Notes under the pieces: model-generated
Told to the model about the DNA's origin: nothing
The model's input: the letters and a program-made list of their open reading frames with translations, nothing else
Database searches by the model: none
Part shown: in pieces, positions 14,587 through 49,766 of the stretch
How positions within the stretch are numbered: position 1 is the stretch's first letter
Layout of the letters: each line of letters opens with the position of its first letter
Virus record (IMG/VR): IMGVR_UViG_3300031659_000012
Location: 1 to 52,792 of that record
Source of the DNA: a virus
Reading direction: 5' to 3' (one strand)
DNA: 52,792 nt
Translations under genes and position numbers: made by a program

Positions 14587-15303
14587 TTAGTCGTCCCAAT
14601 TATCAATGATCGCCCCAAGGTCTCCCGCGTCAGAATCTGGAGCCGGTGCTGCTTTTGTAGCAGTTCTTTTTACCGGAGCTTCTTCCTCGTCAAACCCTTC
14701 GTGCAAGCTATCGTCTAGTACGTTATTGCTTTTGGCAGGTGTTGGTGCGCCCCCTGCAAACGGATTGTCGTCCTCAAGTACGAAGCCCCCGTCTACTGCG
14801 TCAAACGGATTACGTGTTTCCATCGGAACGTACTTGATAACCTGTACAGCCTTCAACCGTAGGGATACGCCCCAGTTGTTTTCTGACATGTAGTAGGGAG
14901 TAAAGGTTACTGCTACGCTGACTGTGCTACCCGTAGTTAGCTGGAAGTCATCTGGCAACGGAGTGCCCTGAGAATCTACCTGTAACGGCTTAGTAGTGAG
15001 CTTACCGCTATAAGCACCTTTTATGTTTGACTTACCGGTGTATGTTCCGTTGTCGTCTTTGACAAGCGAGTTAGTCAGCACTTCAGGCCAAGACTTCTCT
15101 CTGTTAGCGCTCCACACGTTGCTCATCGTTATGAACAATGCTTTTGCCGTTCCGTTGTCCATACGAAAACCTATGGAAAATTCAGCGTTAGTGTCTCGTG
15201 GACCGCAAGGCATACTACGTCTTACCTTCTGATCGAAGACGTACGTCTGGTCAATCCGAGGCCATAACGCCTCTACGTTTTCAATGATATATTGTTCAGC
15301 CAT
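14587..15303 (-). CDS. Single-stranded DNA-binding protein-like (DUF2815-type), 238 aa
   Basis: Strong ribosome-binding site (AAGGAGAAC) before the ATG. Residues 1-160 resemble the beta-rich OB-fold SSBs of phages (DUF2815-like): an opening VEALWPRIDQTYVFD, a central GKSNIKGAYSGKL, and VSLRLKAVQVIKYVP at the end of the domain. Residues 165-238 form an acidic, flexible tail ending in IIDNWDD, as in SSBs that recruit partners through an acidic C-terminus. It lies directly before the primase gene and after an HTH gene, consistent with replication. No enzymatic motif. SSB role is inferred from fold resemblance, tail and context. Confidence 0.72.
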   Translation of the reverse strand: MAEQYIIENVEALWPRIDQTYVFDQKVRRSMPCGPRDTNAEFSIGFRMDNGTAKALFITMSNVWSANREKSWPEVLTNSLVKDDNGTYTGKSNIKGAYSGKLTTKPLQVDSQGTPLPDDFQLTTGSTVSVAVTFTPYYMSENNWGVSLRLKAVQVIKYVPMETRNPFDAVDGGFVLEDDNPFAGGAPTPAKSNNVLDDSLHEGFDEEEAPVKRTATKAAPAPDSDAGDLGAIIDNWDD

Positions 15304-17581: not shown

Positions 17582-17836
17582 TTATTTTTTCTTTTTGTAG
17601 TTACGAGCGCGGTTCTTGCTTGAACTTTCTATGGTCACGCCATCTTTGTTAGTACCACCTTTGGACAAGGCTTTCTTGTGACTAACATCTTTGCCTTCAC
17701 GCTTGTCGGCCTTACCATTGCCATTGCGATCTGCACCTTCTTTATCAACCTTGCGGCGGGCACGCTGACGTTCCATACGTGCCTCAAACGTCTTACTACC
17801 TACAGGGGCGTTGACTTGCTTCTTACGTTTTCTCAT
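17582..17836 (-). CDS. Small basic protein with degenerate HNH-like core, 84 aa
   Basis: Starts at an ATG overlapping the previous stop (TGATG). Very basic: MRKRKKQ at the start and NYKKKK at the end. The centre holds a DRNGNGKADKREGKDVSHKKALSKGG segment. The SHKKALSKGG motif resembles the DHKKPLSKGG core of phage HNH endonuclease-like proteins, but the usual Asp before His is Ser, and only part of the fold is present. It may be a DNA-binding remnant rather than an active nuclease. Located between the Cas4-like nuclease and helicase genes. Confidence 0.68.
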   Translation of the reverse strand: MRKRKKQVNAPVGSKTFEARMERQRARRKVDKEGADRNGNGKADKREGKDVSHKKALSKGGTNKDGVTIESSSKNRARNYKKKK

Positions 17837-18504
17837 CAGTTTGCTCCATTGTGAACACATTCAATTACAGGGCAGTGGCGTCTGCATAACCCGTTAGGTC
17901 GTGCGTTCCACATGTCATCGTCTGCGGCAGCTTTCATTTGCGCGTACTTGCCCAACCATTTTTCCCACAGCTTGCCCTTATCATACTCCATGTATGTGTC
18001 TTTTACCAAGTCATTACATACAACGAATAGTAGCCCTGCACGTACAGTTTTGATCTGGGGGTACTTGGCAAACAACCCCAAGGCCATCAACTCTAACTGA
18101 CCCTTGTCTGCGTACTTGGCAGATTTACCTGTCTTGTAGTCCACCACCCACGCAAGATCATCGTCGAGTATTACTAGGTCAGCGATACCACGGAACCAAA
18201 CGTCCTTGGCATAGAAGTCACAGACTTCTAGGTTCTCTGTTACACCCAGCTTTATCTCGCATAGCTTTTTGCCCTTGCGGTTCTTCAGTGATACCAGTGC
18301 CTCTTCCGCAAAGCTAAACTTCTTAGGCACAGGTACGTCTGCACCTACAAAGTCTTCTGCCATCTTGTGGAACGCAGAGCCATACAAGATAGCCTCAGTC
18401 TGTTTAAACGGAAACTCTTTGAGTATCTTCTCATGGTAGAACTGCTTAGGACATTGCTCAAATGCTTTGATCCTGCTGAAAGACCACGGCGATACTTTAG
18501 TCAT
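17836..18504 (-). CDS. Cas4/RecB-like PD-(D/E)XK nuclease, 222 aa
   Basis: Start chosen at the ATG in an ATGACTAA overlap with the upstream gene. Motifs: SFSRIKAFEQCPKQFYHEK at the N-terminus (first conserved Cys), LYGSAFHKMAEDF (His motif), GIADLVILDDDLAWVVDYKTGK (the Asp and D-x-K catalytic motif), QLELMALGLFAK (motif IV Gln), and a C-terminal CRRHCPVIEC cluster. Four cysteines suggest an Fe-S cluster, as in Cas4 and AddB-like nucleases. Probable 5'-3' exonuclease in replication or recombination, working with the SNF2-type helicase downstream. Confidence 0.88.
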   Translation of the reverse strand: MTKVSPWSFSRIKAFEQCPKQFYHEKILKEFPFKQTEAILYGSAFHKMAEDFVGADVPVPKKFSFAEEALVSLKNRKGKKLCEIKLGVTENLEVCDFYAKDVWFRGIADLVILDDDLAWVVDYKTGKSAKYADKGQLELMALGLFAKYPQIKTVRAGLLFVVCNDLVKDTYMEYDKGKLWEKWLGKYAQMKAAADDDMWNARPNGLCRRHCPVIECVHNGAN

Positions 18505-18868
18505 CAACAGAACTTTCTGAGTTAAACACATCACGCGTAAGGCGTTTCATACGTTTTGTTCTAAAGAACCCTACGTACTGTTGGTGCCGTACCATGTATA
18601 ACCGCGCAAACAATGCAATGAAGTTATTAGAAATTTTATACTCGTTGCCTCTAGTTACTACGCTAGTCTCCCAACGCACTCTGTTGGTTATCAACCAACC
18701 GCTTAAATTCTTATGTCCTCGGCTTATTGCATCTGCGGTAAACCGTTCAAACAGGGTAAAAAAGTCGGGGTTCTTTTTGTGCCAGCGCAACCAATCACGC
18801 CCTAAAGCGCTCTCGCGCATAACTTCGTAAAACTCTGCTTCAGTACAGGTGATTTCTATCGTACTCAT
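18497..18868 (-). CDS. Conserved hypothetical protein, 123 aa
   Basis: Overlaps the end of the polymerase gene (ATGA). Contains ALGRDWLRWHKKNPDFFTLFERFT, then RWETSVV and NNFIALFARLYMVRHQQYVGFFRTK. I recognise this layout from small uncharacterised proteins of phages and bacteria, with an aromatic-rich N-terminal half and a basic C-terminal helix. No known enzyme motif. Its location between polymerase and nuclease suggests an accessory role in DNA metabolism; that is inference. Confidence 0.75.
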   Translation of the reverse strand: MSTIEITCTEAEFYEVMRESALGRDWLRWHKKNPDFFTLFERFTADAISRGHKNLSGWLITNRVRWETSVVTRGNEYKISNNFIALFARLYMVRHQQYVGFFRTKRMKRLTRDVFNSESSVDD

Positions 18869-23960: not shown

Positions 23961-25163
23961 TTACATCTCCCTTGATTTAATATGTACAGTTGTGCCCACG
24001 TCGGGCTTTTTGCGGGCGTTGTCCAAGATGCACCACAACACAGGCGTATTCCATGTGCCCCATCCGCGATACAAGTCACCATCTGTTAGGACGATACACG
24101 CTTGCGGTTTGATGCCATGCTCTTGCATATACTCAGGCACACACTCGACATCCGTACCGCCGCCACCTGCTGGCTTGGTTGACTTCACTAGATCATCTAG
24201 CTCGTGCATCTCATACGCTTCGTCACGACAGACCTTTGTGTCCCAGTACAACACGCGCACCTTGTTAGGTTTTACCGTGTCACACACAGACTTGACCTCA
24301 GACAAGAACGCAGACAACGCCACGTTACCGATAGAACCAGACATGTCGATAGCCACAACCAACTCATCGACCTGCTGACTGATACCAGATGGCATGTAGA
24401 TATTCGCACCTATGTACCGTCTGTTAGGACGTTTCCACGTAGAGTAGTCAGACCCTGCGCACGTAGTATGTATAAACTCGCGCAGTGTTTCACGCCAATC
24501 TATCTGTGGTTGCATGAGTTCTTCAAGGTTGCGATCACCACCGCTACCCATCTTACCCGCGATCAATGCGCCTTGGCGTACAGCCTCGTCGATCTCACGC
24601 GCTAGTTCGCGTATCTCGTCGGCGTCCATATCGGTTGCACCTTCCCAGTCGTGACTGTCGAACCCTTGTGGCCCAGCAGTTCCGCCGCCACCTCCATCCT
24701 CACCCTGTGGCTTGTTATCGTGTAAGTCCCCGAACACCTGCGCAGTGTCCCAGCCACGATACTTCTCGTCATAGCAACCACCTTCGGGTAACTTGATCCA
24801 CCCATCTGCACCGTATTCGTCCATGAGCTTGATGTTGATAACGTAGTCCATAGCCATGTTGGCAAGATGTGGGGCTATCTTGGATAGGTGTGCCCACGTT
24901 GTCAGGTGGCGGTATAGTTTGTGATAGTTCTCGTGCAGTACAAGAAACCGTAGCTCTGCATCGTTAAGACTATCCACAAACTCTGCACCGTACCACTCGT
25001 CACGCCCGTTGGTACAGGCTGTTGGCACCTTGGCATTGTCATGCTCAACGACACGATCACCGATCATCAGCACTGCTGACAACGCAGGAATCTTAGACAT
25101 AAGAGCGACGATTGTTTTGGGCACCCGCTGCTCTGGAGTAAGTTGTTTACCGATAGATAACAT
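23961..25163 (-). CDS. VWA-domain protein with metallopeptidase-like HENYH motif (DUF2201-type), 400 aa
   Basis: N-terminal residues 1-150 hold LVLHENYHKLYRH (His77-Glu78, His81), the HExxH-type signature of VWA-like putative metallopeptidases (DUF2201_N). An acidic Gly-rich linker follows (155-185). The C-terminal VWA domain starts near 265 with the MIDAS motif DMSGS (Asp273, Ser275, Ser277) and later GGTDVE and VLTDGD. Such proteins pair with MoxR-type AAA ATPases in metal-insertion or remodelling machines, and the ATPase gene is two genes upstream. Probably forms a complex with it in host remodelling; substrate unknown. Confidence 0.88.
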   Translation of the reverse strand: MLSIGKQLTPEQRVPKTIVALMSKIPALSAVLMIGDRVVEHDNAKVPTACTNGRDEWYGAEFVDSLNDAELRFLVLHENYHKLYRHLTTWAHLSKIAPHLANMAMDYVINIKLMDEYGADGWIKLPEGGCYDEKYRGWDTAQVFGDLHDNKPQGEDGGGGGTAGPQGFDSHDWEGATDMDADEIRELAREIDEAVRQGALIAGKMGSGGDRNLEELMQPQIDWRETLREFIHTTCAGSDYSTWKRPNRRYIGANIYMPSGISQQVDELVVAIDMSGSIGNVALSAFLSEVKSVCDTVKPNKVRVLYWDTKVCRDEAYEMHELDDLVKSTKPAGGGGTDVECVPEYMQEHGIKPQACIVLTDGDLYRGWGTWNTPVLWCILDNARKKPDVGTTVHIKSREM

Positions 25164-25164
25164 A

Positions 25165-25446
25165 TTATTTCCTCCACCACATCATGCTAGTCCACCAACT
25201 TGGTTTTGGTTGTGACCCTTGCACTGTTACAATTTTACTTTCGGGCACCTGCCCGAAATCCATCTCCACCTGCCGTATCTCACGACCACCCACGGGTAGC
25301 TTCAAGACAGTTATGCGGTTAGTCACCGATGAAGATGTGCGCTTCAAAATTATTGCAATCACCTTCGTGGATACGGCAGCCTCGCGCAGTAATACTAACT
25401 CTGCATCATCTGCTTGGGTCCAGCCCTTGTATGTACGTTTTGTCAT
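25165..25446 (-). CDS. SANT/HTH-like small DNA-binding protein, 93 aa
   Basis: Start at MTKRTYKGWTQADDAELV with AGGAGAG upstream; the longer frame overlaps the AAA gene. Residues 8-50 look like a Myb/SANT or GcrA-like helix-turn-helix: WTQADDAELVLLREAAVSTKVIAIILKRTSSSVTNRI. The C-terminus is Pro/Trp-rich (KPSWWTSMMWW). A full copy of the 18-bp palindrome lies inside this coding sequence and reads FGQVPE in frame. This makes it a candidate regulator and a possible autoregulated gene. It sits between the AAA and VWA genes. Confidence 0.75.
   Translation of the reverse strand: MTKRTYKGWTQADDAELVLLREAAVSTKVIAIILKRTSSSVTNRITVLKLPVGGREIRQVEMDFGQVPESKIVTVQGSQPKPSWWTSMMWWRK
25240..25257. repeat. 18-bp palindrome copy 4 (inside coding sequence)
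   Basis: TTCGGGCACCTGCCCGAA within the 93-residue SANT-like gene. The copy keeps both arms even though it is translated, unlike the intergenic copies. Confidence 0.95.
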
Positions 25447-25456
25447 TTGATCTCTC

Positions 25457-26551
25457 CTACTTTTTATCTGCTGCAAACATGTGGTTGTTATCCATAGCCC
25501 ACTTGGTGAGTTTCTTGTTCTGCATCGCCATAGAACGCTTTGAATACTTGGGGGCACGTACGCCATTGGCAAACATACCTTGTGCTTCGGTGTCGAGACG
25601 TGGCATGTAATCCATCCACGCATCCAGCCAATCCCGCTCCAAAGATGCTAACGTACGGTACACAACCATACATATAGCGGCAGCGCTGTCAGGCACCTTG
25701 GCGGTCTTTGGATCATCTTTGATAGACTGCAACGACGGTAGTTGATCCGACATCTTGACGAACGCCATCAAGTCCATTGCACCACGATCACCGATAGTAC
25801 CTATCAGGGCAGAGGTCAGCGTCTTATCGTTGAACAAGTGCCGTTGGTGTAGGATGTCAGACGCAGAGTGTAGCGAACGTGGGGTAACAAAGGCGGCGCG
25901 TTGCTGCTTGGGGTGGAAGATATACGGGTTCTCGTCGGGGTCTTTGATGTCCTCGAACGATGCGAACAAGTGCGGGTTATCTTTACACCAGCCAAGCAAG
26001 CTATGGTCGATACCAGCATTGATGCCCCATTCGATCCACTCCAAGTTGGTAGACTTGCGTATCTGTACGACGGTCATGCGATTACGTGCGTGAGGTGGTA
26101 GCATGTCACCCACACCTTCTGAACCTTTGTTCGTCGTTGCATACACGATGCTGTCAGGGTGCAATGTGTAGCTACCAATCTTGCGCTCCAAGATCAAACG
26201 TAGCAGAGCCAGCTTGACAGATGGATTAGCCTTGCCGAACTCGTCGATCATAATGATGACAGGCCCGTCCGTGTGCAGACCCAGTTCTTCGTTGGTGACA
26301 TAGCGAACGAACTTGCTGTTCTCGTCAATTTCCATAATCATCGGGATCATAATGTCACCAAGATCAAGGCTCGTGCAGTCTACGTAGAACGTCCTATGTG
26401 TTGGCTTGAGCTTGCCCAACTCACCGAGCGTTGATGATTTACCGTTACCGATGTCACCTTGGAATAGAACAGTACGTTGGTGGCCGATAGCCCCGACAAG
26501 GGTAACACCCTCGTCTAAGCTCAGTGAGTACATTTGTTGTGCAGTATTCAT
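25457..26551 (-). CDS. MoxR-type AAA+ ATPase, 364 aa
   Basis: Walker A GDIGNGKS (32-39) and Walker B VIIMIDE (98-104), then sensor-like TTNKGS and an Arg-containing PPHARNRM segment, match AAA+ ATPases of the MoxR/CobS group. The C-terminal region is helical with no known domain. MoxR enzymes act with VWA proteins to remodel or insert cofactors into partners, and the VWA gene lies just downstream. ATG follows ACAGGAGACTACC with a palindrome copy about 15 bases upstream, so expression is probably co-ordinated with other early genes. Confidence 0.9.
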   Translation of the reverse strand: MNTAQQMYSLSLDEGVTLVGAIGHQRTVLFQGDIGNGKSSTLGELGKLKPTHRTFYVDCTSLDLGDIMIPMIMEIDENSKFVRYVTNEELGLHTDGPVIIMIDEFGKANPSVKLALLRLILERKIGSYTLHPDSIVYATTNKGSEGVGDMLPPHARNRMTVVQIRKSTNLEWIEWGINAGIDHSLLGWCKDNPHLFASFEDIKDPDENPYIFHPKQQRAAFVTPRSLHSASDILHQRHLFNDKTLTSALIGTIGDRGAMDLMAFVKMSDQLPSLQSIKDDPKTAKVPDSAAAICMVVYRTLASLERDWLDAWMDYMPRLDTEAQGMFANGVRAPKYSKRSMAMQNKKLTKWAMDNNHMFAADKK

Positions 26552-26566
26552 GGTAGTCTCCTGTTA

Positions 26567-26584
26567 TTCGGGCAGATGCCCGAA
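26567..26584. repeat. 18-bp palindrome copy 5
   Basis: TTCGGGCAGATGCCCGAA (centre GA) between the 35-residue membrane peptide gene and the AAA ATPase start. Confidence 0.95.
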
Positions 26585-26586
26585 AG

Positions 26587-26694
26587 TTAAATTAACCCTG
26601 TGGCGTAAGCGCCCCAGATAATAAGTAAGGGTATGGCAAAGACTGCCAGCCCCCCGATTAGGTCGTACAAAAATTCTCGGATAGTACCTTTCAT
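26587..26694 (-). CDS. Single-pass membrane peptide, 35 aa
   Basis: ATG overlaps the stop of the 302-residue gene (TAATG). The peptide starts MKGTIREFLYDLIGG and continues as a hydrophobic helix (LAVFAIPLLIIWGAYATGLI) to its end. It would place a short N-terminal segment on one side and one helix in the membrane. Position between the 302-residue protein and MoxR ATPase suggests it is part of that module, perhaps anchoring it; a small toxin or holin-like role is also possible. Too short for most gene finders. Confidence 0.6.
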   Translation of the reverse strand: MKGTIREFLYDLIGGLAVFAIPLLIIWGAYATGLI

Positions 26695-27602
26695 TACATA
26701 TCCAGACTTGGCAGGGTAGCGATGGCTGCGGTTAGCTTCTCTTGCGTGTCAGCGCGAAGCGTTGGTGAGTTCTTGATTTGGTGCAGGTTTACCGGTTGAT
26801 TATTTTTGGTGAACGCTTCTTCTAGCTTGAGGCGCATTGCTTCCATTTGGCTATCACCTGTCACGTTACACGTACGTAACATGTCGATCAGTGACAAAGC
26901 ACCATCGAACACGGTATCATATAGCCTGTTACCTTTGCCCTCTTCGTTGACGTCAAGCTGTCGGACAAGTGTAGTCAGGTTATCATGTAGCCGCTTCCAA
27001 ACGTCATTCATCGCGCCCTTGATCTGCGCTGCGTACTGCGCGGCATACTGCGTCTGTATTTGCACCATGCCCTCGTTACCGATGTCGATACGAAAGTCAC
27101 CGCTGTCAGGTAGTGGGATGTAAGCCATACGAAATGCAAACTTACTCTCTAGCCCTGCGCGTGTTGGGTACTCGTCACGGTTAAACATGTCACCCAGTTT
27201 GGCCTGCGCTTCCATGATCTTCCACTCGTACACCTGCAAGAACTGCTCGGTCAGCCGGTAAAACTCTTGCTGTAGGTCAGTCATTACCTCGTGGTACTTG
27301 AAGTATTGCGCTGTCGTTAGTAGCCGTGACCCGTTGTCCGACCATGGCATTGTCATGCTGTAGTGCATGTTGCGTACGTTAGCGGCGAACTTCTGTACTG
27401 CGTCCAACTCGGCACAGTTACCCAGTAGGTTCTTAGACACATTGGCAACGCCCTTGTCAGCGTGGTTCGCGTCCGTCACATCCTCGGATGCTTTGCGATC
27501 TTTCTTACGTGCAGTCCAGACGCTTGCGTTGAAGTCAACGATCATAGCCGCTGATGATATGCTAGGCGCGGTGGCCTGCGGGGTTTGAAGTATCTCGTTC
27601 AT
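26694..27602 (-). CDS. Hypothetical protein next to MoxR/VWA module (possibly DUF3150-like), 302 aa
   Basis: Start at MNEILQTPQ after TGGAGATTACT; the apparent earlier ATG lies in the ribosome-binding region. The protein is largely helical with several long charged segments (LTEQFLQVYEWKIMEAQAKLGDMF and KGAMNDVWKRLHDNLTTLVRQLD). Proteins of this size beside phage MoxR/CobS-type ATPases are often DUF3150-like; I offer that only as a tentative match. First gene after a strong leftward promoter and a palindrome copy. The order 302-aa protein, membrane peptide, AAA, HTH, VWA forms a compact cassette. Confidence 0.7.
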   Translation of the reverse strand: MNEILQTPQATAPSISSAAMIVDFNASVWTARKKDRKASEDVTDANHADKGVANVSKNLLGNCAELDAVQKFAANVRNMHYSMTMPWSDNGSRLLTTAQYFKYHEVMTDLQQEFYRLTEQFLQVYEWKIMEAQAKLGDMFNRDEYPTRAGLESKFAFRMAYIPLPDSGDFRIDIGNEGMVQIQTQYAAQYAAQIKGAMNDVWKRLHDNLTTLVRQLDVNEEGKGNRLYDTVFDGALSLIDMLRTCNVTGDSQMEAMRLKLEEAFTKNNQPVNLHQIKNSPTLRADTQEKLTAAIATLPSLDM

Positions 27603-27620
27603 AGTAATCTCCATTTGTTA

Positions 27621-44116: not shown

Positions 44117-46282
44117 ATGAGTACATTTGAAAATGATCTGAGGCTTGAAGAGATTGGAACCGGCGAACGCGCGGGTACTTGGGGCACCGCTACTAACACA
44201 AACCTAGAGCTTATTGCCAACGCGCTTAGTTACAGCAGTACCGGAGAAGCTATACCTAACGCTAGTACACATACACTAACGATGGTAGACGGTGCGGCAG
44301 ACGAGTTTAGATCGTTGTACTTAAAGTGTACTGGGGGCGGACAGGCTTGTACGGTTACACTTGCGCCTAACACCTTATCTAAAGTCTGGATGATTGAGAA
44401 CACAACATCCCACACACTGACGTTCTCTCAAGGTTCTGGAGCCAACGTAGCAGTGCTTGCGGGACAAGTTAAAGTCATCGCCACTAACGGGGTGGGGAAC
44501 GCAGGAGCGGTCTTTGACCTTATGCAAGACTTATCTGTACCTGATTTGTTTGTGGATAATGATCTCACTCTGCAGTCCGACGCAGCGGTCTTGGGGTTTG
44601 GCGCAAACAAAGACGTAACTCTTACACACGTACACGACGCAGGGCTGCTGTTAAACGCTGCTATGAAAATACAGTTTAGAGACGCTGCGCTTTCGATTGG
44701 CTCAAGTGCTGATGGTCAACTTGACATTATTGCTGATACAGAGATTCAAATCGCTGCCACTACAATTGACATCAACGGTGCGATAAACGCTAGTGGTGAA
44801 ATTATCGCTGCAAGTTTAGACATATCAGGTAACGTAGACGTCGATGGAACTTTAGAAACTGATGCACTATCTCTTAATGGAACCGCAGTTACCAGCACCG
44901 CCGCAGAGTTAAACATACTTGATGGGGTCACCGCAACAACTGCCGAGTTAAACATACTTGATGGTGTAACTTCTACCACAGCAGAGTTAAACTTACTTGA
45001 CGGTGTAACCTCTACTACAGCAGAGTTAAATATTCTCGACGGGGTTACAAGTACTGCAGCAGAACTAAACATTCTCGACGGGGTTACAAGTACTACAGCA
45101 GAGTTAAACATTCTCGACGGTGTAACCTCTACTACAGCAGAGCTAAATATTCTCGATGGTGTTACAAGTACTGCAGCAGAACTAAACATTCTTGACGTAA
45201 GTAACAGTACAATAGGTGATCTAGCTGAGATAGGCACTGCAGCTAGCGACGATGTATTCATAGCCCTTGATACTTCTGGCGGTGGACTTAAAAAGATTAC
45301 TAGAAGTACTATTCTTGCAGGCTCTGGTTCAAGCAACGATATAGCTAACGTTGTAGAAGATACTAGCCCACAGCTAGGTGGAAACCTAGACATGAATGGG
45401 AAGGACATTGTTACGGTTTCTAATGCCACACTGGATTTGGCACCTAACGGTACAGGTACAGTAGTCGTTAGAGGTAACAGTAACTCAGGTGCAATCGTAT
45501 TTAATTGTGAAAGCAACAGTCACGGGCAAAAAGTATTTGGCCAACCTCACTCAGCAAATATAGATAACACTCTTATGCTGCCTGCTGGTGCTAACTCAAC
45601 GTTAGTATCTCTTGTATCTACAGATACACTAACAAATAAGACTTTAACGTCCCCTAAAATTAATGAGAATGTAGTAGTAACTTCAACAGCTACAGAGTTA
45701 AACATACTTGATGGTGTTACTAGCACAACAGCAGAGCTTAACATATTAGACGGGGTTACTAGTACTACTGCTGAGTTGAATATACTTGATGGTGTAACCA
45801 GTACGGCTGCAGAACTTAATATCTTAGACGGAGTTACTAGTACAGCCGCAGAACTAAACTTGTTGGATGGTGTTACTTCTACTACAGCAGAGCTTAACAT
45901 TCTTGATGGGGTTACATCAACAGCAGCAGAGCTTAACCTAGTCGATGGTCTGGTGGGCATTGTTGCAAAGACAAGTGCTACAGGTTCAGCCCTGCTGCCC
46001 ACAGGTAATACAGCCCAGCGAGATGGCTCACCAACTACAGGTGCATTCCGTTTTAACTCTACGCTGACTGCATTTGAGGGCTACAATGGTAGCGCATGGG
46101 GTTCAGTAGGTGGTGGAGCAACTGGTGGTGTCGGAAATGAAATGTTTTACGAAAACGACCAGATAGCAGACGCGAGTTATACAATCCCCGCTAATAAAAA
46201 CGCAATGACTACGGGACCAATAACTATTGCGGATGGTGTTACGATAACAGTTAGTGACGGTTCAAGATTGGTGGTGATTTAA
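44117..46282 (+). CDS. Tail fibre protein with long 13-residue repeat blocks, 721 aa
   Basis: The N-terminus MSTFENDLRLEEIGTGERAGTWGTATNTNLELIANAL is typical of marine phage tail proteins that attach fibres. Two blocks of VTSTTAELNILDG units follow (eight units near 44888-45199 and seven near 45677-45949), probably forming a regular trimeric stalk. A beta-rich, Gly-rich C-terminal part ends VTITVSDGSRLVVI. It is the first and only fibre gene with this N-terminal attachment region. A short gap then leads to the next fibre gene. Confidence 0.9.
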   Translation: MSTFENDLRLEEIGTGERAGTWGTATNTNLELIANALSYSSTGEAIPNASTHTLTMVDGAADEFRSLYLKCTGGGQACTVTLAPNTLSKVWMIENTTSHTLTFSQGSGANVAVLAGQVKVIATNGVGNAGAVFDLMQDLSVPDLFVDNDLTLQSDAAVLGFGANKDVTLTHVHDAGLLLNAAMKIQFRDAALSIGSSADGQLDIIADTEIQIAATTIDINGAINASGEIIAASLDISGNVDVDGTLETDALSLNGTAVTSTAAELNILDGVTATTAELNILDGVTSTTAELNLLDGVTSTTAELNILDGVTSTAAELNILDGVTSTTAELNILDGVTSTTAELNILDGVTSTAAELNILDVSNSTIGDLAEIGTAASDDVFIALDTSGGGLKKITRSTILAGSGSSNDIANVVEDTSPQLGGNLDMNGKDIVTVSNATLDLAPNGTGTVVVRGNSNSGAIVFNCESNSHGQKVFGQPHSANIDNTLMLPAGANSTLVSLVSTDTLTNKTLTSPKINENVVVTSTATELNILDGVTSTTAELNILDGVTSTTAELNILDGVTSTAAELNILDGVTSTAAELNLLDGVTSTTAELNILDGVTSTAAELNLVDGLVGIVAKTSATGSALLPTGNTAQRDGSPTTGAFRFNSTLTAFEGYNGSAWGSVGGGATGGVGNEMFYENDQIADASYTIPANKNAMTTGPITIADGVTITVSDGSRLVVI
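44888..45199 (+). repeat. 39-bp tandem repeats, fibre block 1 (8 units)
   Basis: Eight in-frame 39-bp units encoding VTSTTAELNILDG with one or two substitutions each, in the 721-residue fibre gene. Confidence 0.93.
45677..45949 (+). repeat. 39-bp tandem repeats, fibre block 2 (7 units)
   Basis: Seven in-frame 39-bp units of the same type as block 1, in the same gene and separated from it by a unique segment. Confidence 0.93.
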
Positions 46283-47026
46283 ATGACAATACTATTAGAT
46301 GGTACAAACGGTGTAACAACAGCAGGTATAACTCTAGGGTCAACTGCTATTGCTTCCACAGGTGCTGAGATTAACATCCTAGATGGTGTAACTAGTACAG
46401 CCGCAGAGCTTAATATATTAGATGGGGTTACCAGTACAGCCGCAGAGCTTAATATATTAGATGGGGTAACTTCTACTACAGCAGAGCTTAATATACTTGA
46501 TGGGGTTACCAGTACAGCAGCAGAACTTAACATCCTAGATGGAGTCACCTCTACAGCGGCTGAACTTAACATCATGGATGGAGTTACAACTACCGCAGCA
46601 GAAATTAACTTAATAGACGGTGGCACTGCAAGAGGCACAACAGCCTTAGCTGACGGTGACGGTATACTTATTAATGACGCTGGAACAATGCGTATGACTA
46701 CAGTGCAAACTGTTAAAACATACATGGGTGGTAACCCTTACACAGCACAGTCTACATCCTCTAATGGTTACATTACATTTGTTGGGGGTATTATCATCCA
46801 GTGGGGTTATTTCTCCTCTGGTGATACTAGCGTTACAACCGTGACGTTTCCGATAGCTTTTCCAAACGCTTGTCATAGTGTTGCAGGACTTCACCGAGGT
46901 ACTTCTGGTGCTAACGATCACCGCAACGGGTGGTGTCTTACGGGCAGTCCCGGTACATCCTCTATGGCTATAAAGAACGTAACCGCTGCTACAGCCGCTT
47001 TTTACTGGATAGCAATAGGGCATTAA
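46283..47026 (+). CDS. Tail fibre protein with gp53-like C-terminal domain, 247 aa
   Basis: ATG directly after the previous stop. Short N-terminus, then seven 13-residue repeats (46349-46621), a conserved junction AEINLIDGGTARGTTALADGDGILINDAGTMRMTTVQTVKTYMG, and a distinct C-terminal domain beginning NPYTAQSTSSNGYITFVGGIIIQWGYFSSGD, which fits gp53-like fibre tips. Likely receptor-binding variant. The following gene encodes its chaperone-like partner. Confidence 0.85.
   Translation: MTILLDGTNGVTTAGITLGSTAIASTGAEINILDGVTSTAAELNILDGVTSTAAELNILDGVTSTTAELNILDGVTSTAAELNILDGVTSTAAELNIMDGVTTTAAEINLIDGGTARGTTALADGDGILINDAGTMRMTTVQTVKTYMGGNPYTAQSTSSNGYITFVGGIIIQWGYFSSGDTSVTTVTFPIAFPNACHSVAGLHRGTSGANDHRNGWCLTGSPGTSSMAIKNVTAATAAFYWIAIGH
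46349..46621 (+). repeat. 39-bp tandem repeats, fibre block 3 (7 units)
   Basis: Seven in-frame 39-bp units at the start of the 247-residue fibre, ending in the shared LIDGG junction. Confidence 0.92.
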
Positions 47027-47038
47027 GGAGTATTAAAA

Positions 47039-47422
47039 ATGAGATATGCACATATAAATGAGAACAACCGCCTTCTTGGCTGGTACGCTGACGAAGTACA
47101 TTCTACTATACCGACACCTAAAGTGGTTGTTACAGATGAACAATGGCAAACAGCATTAGATAATAATCACAACTCCATTAATGCAGACGGTTCCGGTTCG
47201 GTTGTAGACTTTTCAAATGATGAAGAAAAAGCGTTGTCAGTAAGGGAAAGTCGTGACAACATCCTAGTAACAGTTGTTGATCCTATTGCAGGTAATGCAC
47301 TGCGCTGGGCTGCATTAACGTCAGAGCAACGAACTGCATGGGCTACGTACAGAACCGCCCTTTTAGATGTACCTGCACAAGCTGGCTTTCCTAGTAGCAT
47401 TACATGGCCTACTGCGCCTTAA
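47039..47422 (+). CDS. Tail fibre assembly chaperone-like protein, 127 aa
   Basis: AAGGAG upstream of the ATG. N-terminal part contains RYAHINENNRLLGWYADEVHSTIPTPKVVVTDEQWQTAL; C-terminal part ends ATYRTALLDVPAQAGFPSSITWPTAP. The pattern (helix, YRxALxxVPAQAGFPxSITWP) is shared with the chaperones at 48152 and 49488. Likely promotes folding or trimerisation of the neighbouring fibre. Confidence 0.82.
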   Translation: MRYAHINENNRLLGWYADEVHSTIPTPKVVVTDEQWQTALDNNHNSINADGSGSVVDFSNDEEKALSVRESRDNILVTVVDPIAGNALRWAALTSEQRTAWATYRTALLDVPAQAGFPSSITWPTAP

Positions 47423-47453
47423 AACATAAGAACTACAACACGGAGTATGAAAT

Positions 47454-48152
47454 ATGAGTAAAATAGCCCTTACACCAAATGCAAGTGGTAATGGTGTATT
47501 TACAATTACCGCACCAAACTCTGGTACGAATAGGGCTATTGCTCTACCCGATGCTGCGGGTACAATTCCACTACTAGCAGCCGCAAGTAACACAGCCATT
47601 ACATCCACACCAGCAGAGCTAAATATATTAGACGGTGTGACTAGCACAGCCGCAGAGCTTAATATCCTTGATGGAGTTACTAGTACTACTGCTGAATTAA
47701 ATATACTTGATGGAGTTACATCAACAGCCGCAGAACTAAACATCTTGGATGGTGTAACCTCTACGGCAGCAGAGCTTAACCTAATAGACGGTGGTACAGC
47801 CAGAGGTACAACTGCTGTAGCTGATGGCGATGGCATACTAATTAACGATGCCGGTACAATGAGAATGACTACAGTACAAACTGTTAAAACATACATGGGT
47901 GCTAGTACAACCTCTGGCGCTGTTGGGACGTATCAACTAGGCAGGCCACTCTCTAATGCCGCTTTTGCTATTGGTGCTACAACTAGTTCGTTTTATGCAT
48001 GGGCGCAGGCCCGTGAGGGGGGAGTTGCGAATTTTGAGGCGCAGCTGGTTGGTGCAAATACCGCTAGTCAGTCTGGTACTTGGAGGTGCATAAGTGGCGC
48101 TGCAGCTGCCAGCGGCCAAGGTTTCGCTGGCTTATGGGTAAGGATATCATAA
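47454..48152 (+). CDS. Tail fibre protein, short variant, 232 aa
   Basis: ATG preceded by GGAGTATGAAAT. N-terminus NASGNGVFTITAPNSGTNRAIALPD, then five repeats (47598-47792), the shared LIDGGTARGTTAVADGDGILINDAG junction and a different short C-terminal domain rich in Ala/Ser/Gly. Overlaps the next chaperone gene by one base. Confidence 0.82.
   Translation: MSKIALTPNASGNGVFTITAPNSGTNRAIALPDAAGTIPLLAAASNTAITSTPAELNILDGVTSTAAELNILDGVTSTTAELNILDGVTSTAAELNILDGVTSTAAELNLIDGGTARGTTAVADGDGILINDAGTMRMTTVQTVKTYMGASTTSGAVGTYQLGRPLSNAAFAIGATTSSFYAWAQAREGGVANFEAQLVGANTASQSGTWRCISGAAAASGQGFAGLWVRIS
47598..47792 (+). repeat. 39-bp tandem repeats, fibre block 4 (5 units)
   Basis: Five in-frame 39-bp units in the 232-residue fibre gene, same consensus as other blocks. 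Confidence 0.92.
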
Positions 48153-48547
48153 TGAGTATAACAATTACACAAATCCGCAATGCGGTATCAATGAACGCTG
48201 CTAACACAAGCATTGACGTTGAGATTAATCATCCAGACTACGGATGGATACCCTACACACTAGACCCTGCTGACACTGATATGACTATCAACAACGATGC
48301 AGTCATGGCCCTTATTGGTGCAGACTTTGATGCTTATGTTGCTCCTACTGATGCAGAGATAGCCGCAGCTTTAGCAATTAAAGTTCGTGCAAAACGAGAT
48401 GAACTAATTGCAGCCACTGATTGGACGGGCAACAGTGATGTGACTATGACTTCTGCCATGACCACATACAGGGCTGCATTACGGAATGTACCTGCACAAG
48501 CTGGGTTTCCTAATAGTATTACTTGGCCAACCTTGGGGGGATCATAA
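48152..48547 (+). CDS. Tail fibre assembly chaperone-like protein, 131 aa
   Basis: Start chosen at MSITITQIRNAVSM, coupled to the fibre stop (TAATG); a longer frame starts inside the fibre gene. Ends YRAALRNVPAQAGFPNSITWPTLGGS like the other chaperones. N-terminal part is a distinct acidic domain with NHPDYGWIPYTLDPADTDM. Pairs with the upstream fibre. Confidence 0.8.
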   Translation: MSITITQIRNAVSMNAANTSIDVEINHPDYGWIPYTLDPADTDMTINNDAVMALIGADFDAYVAPTDAEIAAALAIKVRAKRDELIAATDWTGNSDVTMTSAMTTYRAALRNVPAQAGFPNSITWPTLGGS

Positions 48548-49461
48548 TGTCCACACTACGAACAGACGCAATCGTTGACCTAGCGGGTAACGGTAAGCCT
48601 GACTTGAGTAACGGCGTTCAGATTGGTGGCGTTGCTGTTACCTCTACAGCCGCAGAGCTTAATATCCTTGATGGTGTGACCAGTACAGCCGCTGAACTTA
48701 ATATTCTTGACGGTGTAACTTCTACCGCTGCTGAACTTAATATTCTTGACGGTGTAACCAGCACCGCTGCTGAGTTAAACATCCTAGATGGAGTTACAGC
48801 CACTGCCGCTGAAATAAACCTTATTGATGGTGGAACGGCACGAGGTACTACAGCAGTAGCTGATGGTGATGGTTTTTTAACTAATGATGGCGGTACTATG
48901 AGGATGACCAAAGTTGAGACTTTGGCTACTTATATGGGTACTAAAGTTGGCGGCGGGGCAAGGGTTTTTGTTGCCTCATCTGGCGTTGTTAGCGGCGTTG
49001 CATCTATTGTATTCACTCAATTTGATTCAAGCAAGTTTGATTACTACGTATTTACAATGCTATCTGTGATTCCCGCAACAAATGAGGCTACTTTATTCTG
49101 CCAGACTAGCACTGATGGCGGTACTAATTTTGCAACTGATAGTGGAAATTACAGACATAGCGGTAATACACATAGTATTGGGATGAATGTGATAGACACC
49201 GCAATAGGTAGCTCATCTGGCCAAGACGGAGTGTTTGGGGATTTCTCTTTATTTGAGCCTGAAACCTCTGGCAAGCAGACAAGAGGTTTAAGCAATTGTA
49301 TGGCTATTCATAGTGCCTCCACTCATAGAGTTGCATCAACAGACGTCAGCTGTGCGTCATCTAGAGCATCTGCTGAAGATAATAACGCTGTCAGGTTTAT
49401 TATGAGCGCTGGCAATATAGGGTCAGGTGAAATTGTAATGTTTGGCATAGCCAATGCTTAA
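48547..49461 (+). CDS. Tail fibre protein with beta-rich tip, 304 aa
   Basis: TTGGGGGG is a good ribosome-binding site and the ATG overlaps the chaperone stop. Five repeats (48637-48831), the shared junction (here VADGDGFLTNDGGTMRMTKVETLATYMG), and a long C-terminal domain (ARVFVASSGVVSGVASIVFTQFDSSKFDYYVFT ... SGEIVMFGIANA) that looks like a jelly-roll-type receptor-binding tip. Confidence 0.82.
   Translation: MSTLRTDAIVDLAGNGKPDLSNGVQIGGVAVTSTAAELNILDGVTSTAAELNILDGVTSTAAELNILDGVTSTAAELNILDGVTATAAEINLIDGGTARGTTAVADGDGFLTNDGGTMRMTKVETLATYMGTKVGGGARVFVASSGVVSGVASIVFTQFDSSKFDYYVFTMLSVIPATNEATLFCQTSTDGGTNFATDSGNYRHSGNTHSIGMNVIDTAIGSSSGQDGVFGDFSLFEPETSGKQTRGLSNCMAIHSASTHRVASTDVSCASSRASAEDNNAVRFIMSAGNIGSGEIVMFGIANA
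48637..48831 (+). repeat. 39-bp tandem repeats, fibre block 5 (5 units)
   Basis: Five in-frame 39-bp units in the 304-residue fibre gene. Confidence 0.92.
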
Positions 49462-49487
49462 AAATAATAAAATAAAGGAAGTGCATT

Positions 49488-49766
49488 ATGCCCAGATTTA
49501 ATATGGTAGATGGTGTGAGGGTACAGTGCAGTGCTGAAGACGAAACTTACTTTGACGCCTTAGATCAAACACATACTGACACAGCAGTAGCTCGTGCATC
49601 TGCTGCTGTTCGTAAAGAACGAGATGCCTTAATTGCAGCTACTGATTGGTGGGCTTTAGGAGACAGATCAATAACAGATGCACAAACTGCGTATAGACTT
49701 GCCTTACGTAATGTACCTGCACAGGCTGGGTTTCCTAACAGCATTACATGGCCGACTAAGCCATGA
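49488..49766 (+). CDS. Tail fibre assembly chaperone-like protein, 92 aa
   Basis: AAAGGAAGTGC upstream. Short N-terminus and the same C-terminal block as the other two chaperones (YRLALRNVPAQAGFPNSITWPTKP). Overlaps the next gene by 4 bases. Third member of the chaperone set, so each of the three short fibre genes has its own chaperone. Confidence 0.8.
   Translation: MPRFNMVDGVRVQCSAEDETYFDALDQTHTDTAVARASAAVRKERDALIAATDWWALGDRSITDAQTAYRLALRNVPAQAGFPNSITWPTKP

Follow-up and report, generated by a model that had tools for sequence, protein, structure and literature searches.

The 52,792-base virus record analysed here at its full length (the window) contains, between positions 44117 and 49766, a tandem set of fibre and chaperone genes that share a short repeat, which raises the question of whether the fibre tips are exchangeable and, if they are, what unit is exchanged and by what means. 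The record includes large terminase, portal and major head genes, and its source is an uncultured marine virus of bacteria. The genes of the region lie in the order F1, F2, C2, F3, C3, F4, C4, all on the forward strand, and it is proposed, with a probability of roughly 0.8, that F1 is constant and that F2, F3 and F4 are receptor-binding fibres fixed in slots A, B and C, whose tips and cognate chaperones form cassettes exchanged by recombination. In this model the fibres would have a shaft of ELNILDG units in common, and the exchangeable cassette would be the distal tip with its cognate chaperone. The cassette would be replaced through general homologous recombination, most likely at co-infection, by two crossovers, the first located in the repeats of the shaft or in a 105-bp junction and the second where the chaperone gene is conserved; any of the three slots could then receive a tip and its matching chaperone with the anchor undisturbed. 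The slot-specific anchors and ends, the occurrence of tips in different slots and the mosaic breakpoints can be read directly from the sequences. The receptor-binding role given to the tips is putative, and their exchange would probably alter the choice of bacterial surfaces to which the virus can attach.

F1 (44117-46282, 721 aa) has a conserved N-terminus and carries two of the five repeat blocks (44888-45200 and 45677-45949). The initial annotation had counted it among four repeat-bearing fibres, which holds for the repeats; however, its final 111 residues are 92-100% conserved among full-length relatives of the window kind, and F1 is therefore a constant fibre outside the set of swap cassettes. 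A search of a phage collection returned no near relative of the window phage. The nearest cultured relatives by the F1 N-terminus are the Roseobacter phages CRP-901 and CRP-902, which have one fibre gene at the corresponding place and no annotated array; HTVC008M has the repeat and the junction, but within a single large gene. In one contig (L007:5839-9876) a mostly different fibre of 1,345 aa is found, with no array, beside neighbouring structural genes that are 75-89% identical, indicating that the host-recognition module has been replaced between close relatives. In two others (L014:6909-8757 and L015:9807-11679) a glycine-rich adhesin-like protein follows the long fibre in place of the cassette array.

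The three cassettes behind F1 are built alike. In slot A, a slot-specific anchor (MTILLDGTNGVTTAGITLGSTA, 46283-46348) is followed by the F2 repeat block of seven units (46349-46621) and the F2 junction (GTARGTTA..TYM, 46622-46726), which together form the 5' crossover zone, then by the F2 tip (46727-47026) and the C2 chaperone (47039-47422), the N-terminal part of which goes with the tip while its 3' end is of slot A type. Slot B comprises an anchor of 48 aa (47454-47597), the five repeats of F3 (47598-47792), the junction (47793-47897), a tip of the GAVGTY...GTWR type (47898-48152) and the C3 chaperone (48152-48547), which has the slot B 3' end WPTLGGS. Slot C comprises the anchor (MSTLRTDAIVDLAGNGKPDLSNGVQIGGVA, 48547-48636), the five repeats of F4 (48637-48831), the junction (48832-48936), a tip of the YYVF type (48937-49461) and C4 (49488-49766), with a slot C 3' end. 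The coordinates given earlier for the region were correct apart from two start codons: the likeliest start of F4 is the ATG at 48547, which overlaps the C3 stop, and that of C3 is at 48152, an upstream TTG codon being disfavoured in each case.

The junction AE[IL]NLIDGGTARGTTA was found only in F2, F3 and F4, and the homology between these fibres runs about 36 residues from it, as far as TYM; beyond this point the tips gave no match to one another at E<=1e-5, in agreement with the earlier description of one junction followed by unrelated tips. That each of these fibres is followed by its own chaperone is likewise borne out: C2, C3 and C4 match PF16778 at 2e-13, 5e-16 and 2e-18 (50-66 bits against a cut-off of 26.6), membership of this family and of PF21882 being taken as a profile match above the gathering score. 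The F2 tip matches Gp53-like_C (PF21882) at 9e-17 (61.8 bits against a cut-off of 24.9); the phage fibre 4mtm and the fibres of R-pyocins are further sequence matches of this tip. The F4 tip is predicted to be an all-beta domain (pLDDT 85) that resembles predicted phage fibre domains; it had no sequence match and no confident structural match in the PDB.

The comparison set consists of the window and 15 related contigs, all of these relatives being metagenome contigs. In this set the genes after F1 start with one of three anchors, MTILLDGTNGVTTAGITLGSTA in slot A, MSKIALTPNASGNGVFTITAPNSGTNRAIALPDAAGTIPLLAAASNTA in slot B and MSTLRTDAIVDLAGNGKPDLSNGVQIGGVA in slot C. These anchors are short (22-48 aa), and their DNA is 91-92% identical when the slot is the same and 40-42% identical when it differs. 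Eight of the 15 contigs, two of them with an extra anchor, show the order F1-end, A, B, C, and most of the remainder end inside the array; in several contigs, the downstream genes of the window follow. The extra anchors are a second C in L101 (A,B,C,C) and a second B in L432 (A,B,C,B), and in these four-anchor arrays (L101:3301-4622 and L432:6830-10667) the number of slots is itself variable. As in branched multi-RBP systems, there are several fibres, each with its own conserved N-terminal anchor, and the slot-specific anchor presumably sets where the fibre attaches. None of the F2, F3 and F4 anchors had a Pfam match, and thus no T4 gp10-like XD domain was detected by sequence profile.

The stable A-B-C gene order, together with the identity of tip types between the window and L088, would be expected if the fibres were fixed components that arose by old gene duplication and have since been inherited vertically with no exchange. 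This is extremely improbable, as it is already contradicted by a sharp conflict between anchor and tip similarity and by mosaic switches inside single genes. Tips of the Gp53-like type occupy slot A in the window and slot B in L089; F4-type tips occupy slot A in L216, slot B in L103, L169, L170, L433 and others, and slot C in the window, L088, L431, L432 and L101; and an S74 tip occupies slot A in L103 and slot B in L360. The F4-type tip in slot B recurs in paired independent assemblies (L169/L170, L103/L362 and L216/L431). Amino acid identities of tips across slots are 85% (window slot A and L089 slot B), 90% (L433 B and L431 C), 82% (L432 C and L433 B), 77% (L216 A and L433 B) and 77% (L103 A and L360 B). 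Slot B of L089 is identical in DNA to that of the window from 60 bases upstream through the anchor and the first repeat, switches within the repeats to the window slot A sequence, which it follows at 82-100% through tip and chaperone, and reverts to slot B type at the final bases of the chaperone; L433 and L216 contain switches of the same kind. Between L089 and the window, slots A and B have traded tip types, but a single reciprocal swap was rejected: with F3-type tips at just 44% identity, this was not one recent event.

The same conflict is seen when 21 cassettes are compared as pairs sharing a slot with different tips and pairs sharing a tip type in different slots. Identity in the former versus the latter was 0.92 versus 0.42 for the anchor, 0.94 versus 0.71 for the first repeat and 0.97 versus 0.54 for the last 15 bp of the chaperone, and conversely 0.40 versus 0.67 for the tip and 0.56 versus 0.80 for the N-terminal part of the chaperone. 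Slot therefore governs the anchor, the first repeat and the chaperone end (permutation p=0.0005), the bases following the chaperone also tracking slot in a permutation test, and tip type governs the tip and the chaperone N-part (permutation p=0.0005). Tip and chaperone are inherited together and are discordant with the backbone of slot anchors and flanks, the pattern known from syringacins, and it is well supported by these comparisons that the tip and the N-terminal part of the chaperone have repeatedly moved between fibres. The exchanged unit had previously been taken to be the tip; this part stands, but the unit also includes the chaperone, and the common chaperone C-terminus, noted at the time and left unused, marks the conserved end that acts as the 3' arm.

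The crossovers, known here on an evolutionary timescale from comparison of contigs rather than from a growing culture, were placed by 13 three-sequence breakpoint scans, the events of which partly overlap. In all 13 the 5' breakpoint falls in the stretch bounded by the first repeat and the border of the tip, within the repeat blocks in L089, L103, L360 and the window and within the 105-bp junction in several others. The 3' breakpoint falls in the chaperone in the ten scans where a chaperone bounds the exchange. In two scans of S74 tips it falls near the fibre stop, since these tips have an intramolecular chaperone domain (PF13884) and their cassettes (L103:68-1096 in slot A and L360:1756-2811 in slot B) have no separate chaperone gene. 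The scan of slot C of L101 reached the end of the compared stretch with no 3' breakpoint; the third cassette of this contig has a C anchor, a B-type chaperone end and then another C anchor, an arrangement such as an unequal B/C crossover would leave.

Whether the repeats take part in these crossovers as DNA or are simply a protein shaft is a separate matter. The 32 copies of the VTSTTAELNILDG unit in five blocks (8+7+7+5+5; 31 AE[IL]N and one TELN) agree with the original count, and the 39-bp arrays, with TRF scores of up to 392, are not due to chance; no mention of the AELNILDG motif was found in the papers searched. Between the blocks, DNA identity is 71.5%; re-encoding these proteins at random according to the codon preferences of the phage yields 69.8% (sd 0.5%), and only 41% of third positions match. 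The repeat DNA is thus near synonymous saturation and is kept as protein, presumably as the fibre shaft, and upkeep of the 39-bp repeats at the DNA level was rejected on this control. It is possible, though doubtful, that the repeats are a structural shaft only and that tips move either by way of the junction and the chaperone end or through illegitimate recombination whose products selection then sorts. This would account for the saturation, for the several 5' breakpoints in the junction and for the identity of the last repeat, which follows slot more than tip, but not for the 5' breakpoints that lie within repeat blocks in the four arrays named above, nor readily for the variation in repeat number (5-9 in slot A, 3-6 in slot B and 1-5 in slot C, with none counted at two anchors), which is consistent with recombination inside the block. 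Exact cross-slot matches within the window genome are short, 12-29 bp in the repeats and junction and 14-19 bp in the chaperone ends. Given exact runs of 12-29 bp between blocks and breakpoints at these places, the repeats appear to act as arms incidentally. Of the original proposal that the repeats are arms for swapping tips, swapping at the shared junction is thus strongly supported and crossovers also occur in the repeats, but the repeats are not kept for that purpose (0.715 versus 0.698); it advised seeking tip swaps and changes of repeat number in metagenomic reads and related genomes, and the related contigs show both tips in different slots and a varying number of repeats.

A short-read assembler can jump from one strain to another within shared arms, and the mosaics could be chimeras in which the tips of co-occurring strains were linked through repeats, junctions and chaperone ends. 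For the contigs from South Scotia Ridge (L101, L104, L179, L215, L362 and L431), 2x150 bp reads were assembled with IDBA_UD and the assemblies pooled (PMC6410227). Two of these, L431 and L215 (metagenome 3300028548), have different slot C tips flanked by identical sequence, 565 bp upstream and 5,498 bp downstream; their slot B cassettes differ too, that of L215 being 94.1% identical over 896 bp to the slot C cassette of L101, and with pooled runs of such reads the phase of L431 and L215 over these distances is not proved. The window and L088, which have the same tips, show 31 differences in 6,632 sites, all confined to four patches in shared segments: the F2 junction (46654-46669), the F3 repeats (47606-47705, the F3 repeat block holding 19 of the 31), C3 (48410-48454) and the F4 junction (48894-48948). 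L169 and L433 carry the same F2 patch as L088, and L170 and L179 carry the core of the window patch; the four patches could be either short recombination (gene-conversion) tracts or strain switching by the assembler. Nevertheless, chimerism is a very unlikely explanation of the mosaics as a whole: the slot and tip statistics are materially unchanged when all South Scotia Ridge contigs are omitted, the window array recurs independently in L088, the F4-type tip in slot B is present in both L169 and L170 with 816 identical bases, tips across slots have an identity of 77-90% and not 100%, and the breakpoints in slot B of L089 lie where there is no exact cross-slot match of at least 70 bp. The slot A arrangement of L216 and the arrangement of L089 each rest on a single contig.

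The agent of exchange in the model of slot-fixed fibres with movable cassettes would be the general recombination of the phage or host. Neither a reverse transcriptase (PF00078) nor a serine recombinase, resolvase or invertase (PF00239) nor a tyrosine integrase (PF00589) was found in the record, in agreement with the initial annotation. On the reverse strand, a Gp2.5-like ssDNA-binding/annealing protein (14587-15303; phrog_112, 4.6e-14) is a candidate for general recombination and a PD-(D/E)XK exonuclease (17836-18534; phrog_69) a candidate partner, and together they could support recombination at short homologies.

The initial annotation spoke of an alternative-fibre set but allowed equally for all fibres on one virion. 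It is conceivable that all three serve one attachment site by turns, through expression or swapping, in the manner of invertible tail-fibre systems; a shaft, junction and chaperone end in common with tips that differ would fit such an arrangement. This is quite unlikely for several reasons. The three anchors are distinct and each is conserved in its own slot; the array genes lie on one strand with overlapping stop and start codons (TAATG); none of the recombinases or the reverse transcriptase sought was found; and inverted repeats bracketing the tips were limited to weak arms of 14-25 nt at 74-94%. Promoters and terminators between the cassettes were not in excess over chance. Separate anchors, overlapping codons, the lack of such signals above chance and the lack of inversion machinery favour joint expression and display, and the three fibres are probably displayed together on one virion. 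A further possibility, rather unlikely, is that inter-slot recombination at the shaft repeats or junction and chaperone ends within one replicating genome pool would continually make new tip combinations and slot numbers in a recombinase-free shuffling array, so that sibling virions would have different sets of three or four tips.

Comparable designs are known. In the distal fibre of T-even phages (gp37/gp38), adhesin specificity is swapped through recombination between conserved motifs, but this concerns one fibre tip, with glycine-rich motifs in gp38 and no tandem cassettes, and the window cassettes gave no match to a gp38-type adhesin family with such motifs. The invertible fibres of phages Mu and P1 pair alternative tips with alternative assembly chaperones; these systems require an invertase and inverted repeats, neither of which was found in the window. 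Localized recombination affects the receptor-binding protein and chaperone of R-type syringacins (PMC6331570) and the tail-fibre loci of Pectobacterium carotovoricin (PMC13195805), where homologous recombination confined to the fibre genes (with the chaperone in syringacins) in a conserved backbone changes tip specificity, as it would here. There, however, the partners are bacterial strains and the site is a chromosomal fibre locus, whereas in the window array three slots lie in tandem, each with an anchor of its own, cassettes are exchanged from slot to slot and from phage to phage, and the arms are mapped to the shaft repeats or junction and the chaperone end. The branched multi-RBP systems of Ackermannviridae (PMC11414711) also comprise several RBPs in which conserved N-terminal modules set the place and C-terminal domains are exchanged by recombination, but these are tailspikes with T4 gp10-like XD domains, unlike the anchors of 22-48 aa, repeat shaft and cognate chaperones of the window. 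Alteromonas phages A5 and V22 have tail fibre and chaperone modules in common (PMC10579305), and fibre and cognate chaperone likewise travel together between phages; what is shared is the whole host-recognition module of one fibre, and the available part of that account describes neither tandem slots nor slot-specific chaperone ends. Fibre and chaperone recombination is therefore itself known, and what is new is the combination of tandem slots with fixed anchors, tip and chaperone cassettes that move among them and crossover arms at both ends.

This suggests a modular design in uncultured marine phages, in which the part that would fix the place of a fibre is separate from the part that would bind the host and the matching chaperone is carried along. 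How phages change receptor without breaking fibre assembly becomes a testable question, the anchors and crossover arms being sequence handles with which tip exchange can be measured in metagenomes. The scheme used here, naming slot, tip type and chaperone type, is offered for fibre genes that are otherwise unannotated.

Two minor observations may be added. In slot B of L216 (2425-2475) the chaperone gene is gone save for its first and last bases, by deletion or assembly error, and slot A of the same contig retains a chaperone of the missing type. Elsewhere in the window, on the reverse strand at 23961-27614, a VWA/metallopeptidase-like protein (DUF2201), an AAA ATPase and a DUF3150 protein form a cluster similar to MoxR-VWA pairs, the first of these being labelled an HNH endonuclease in PHROGs.
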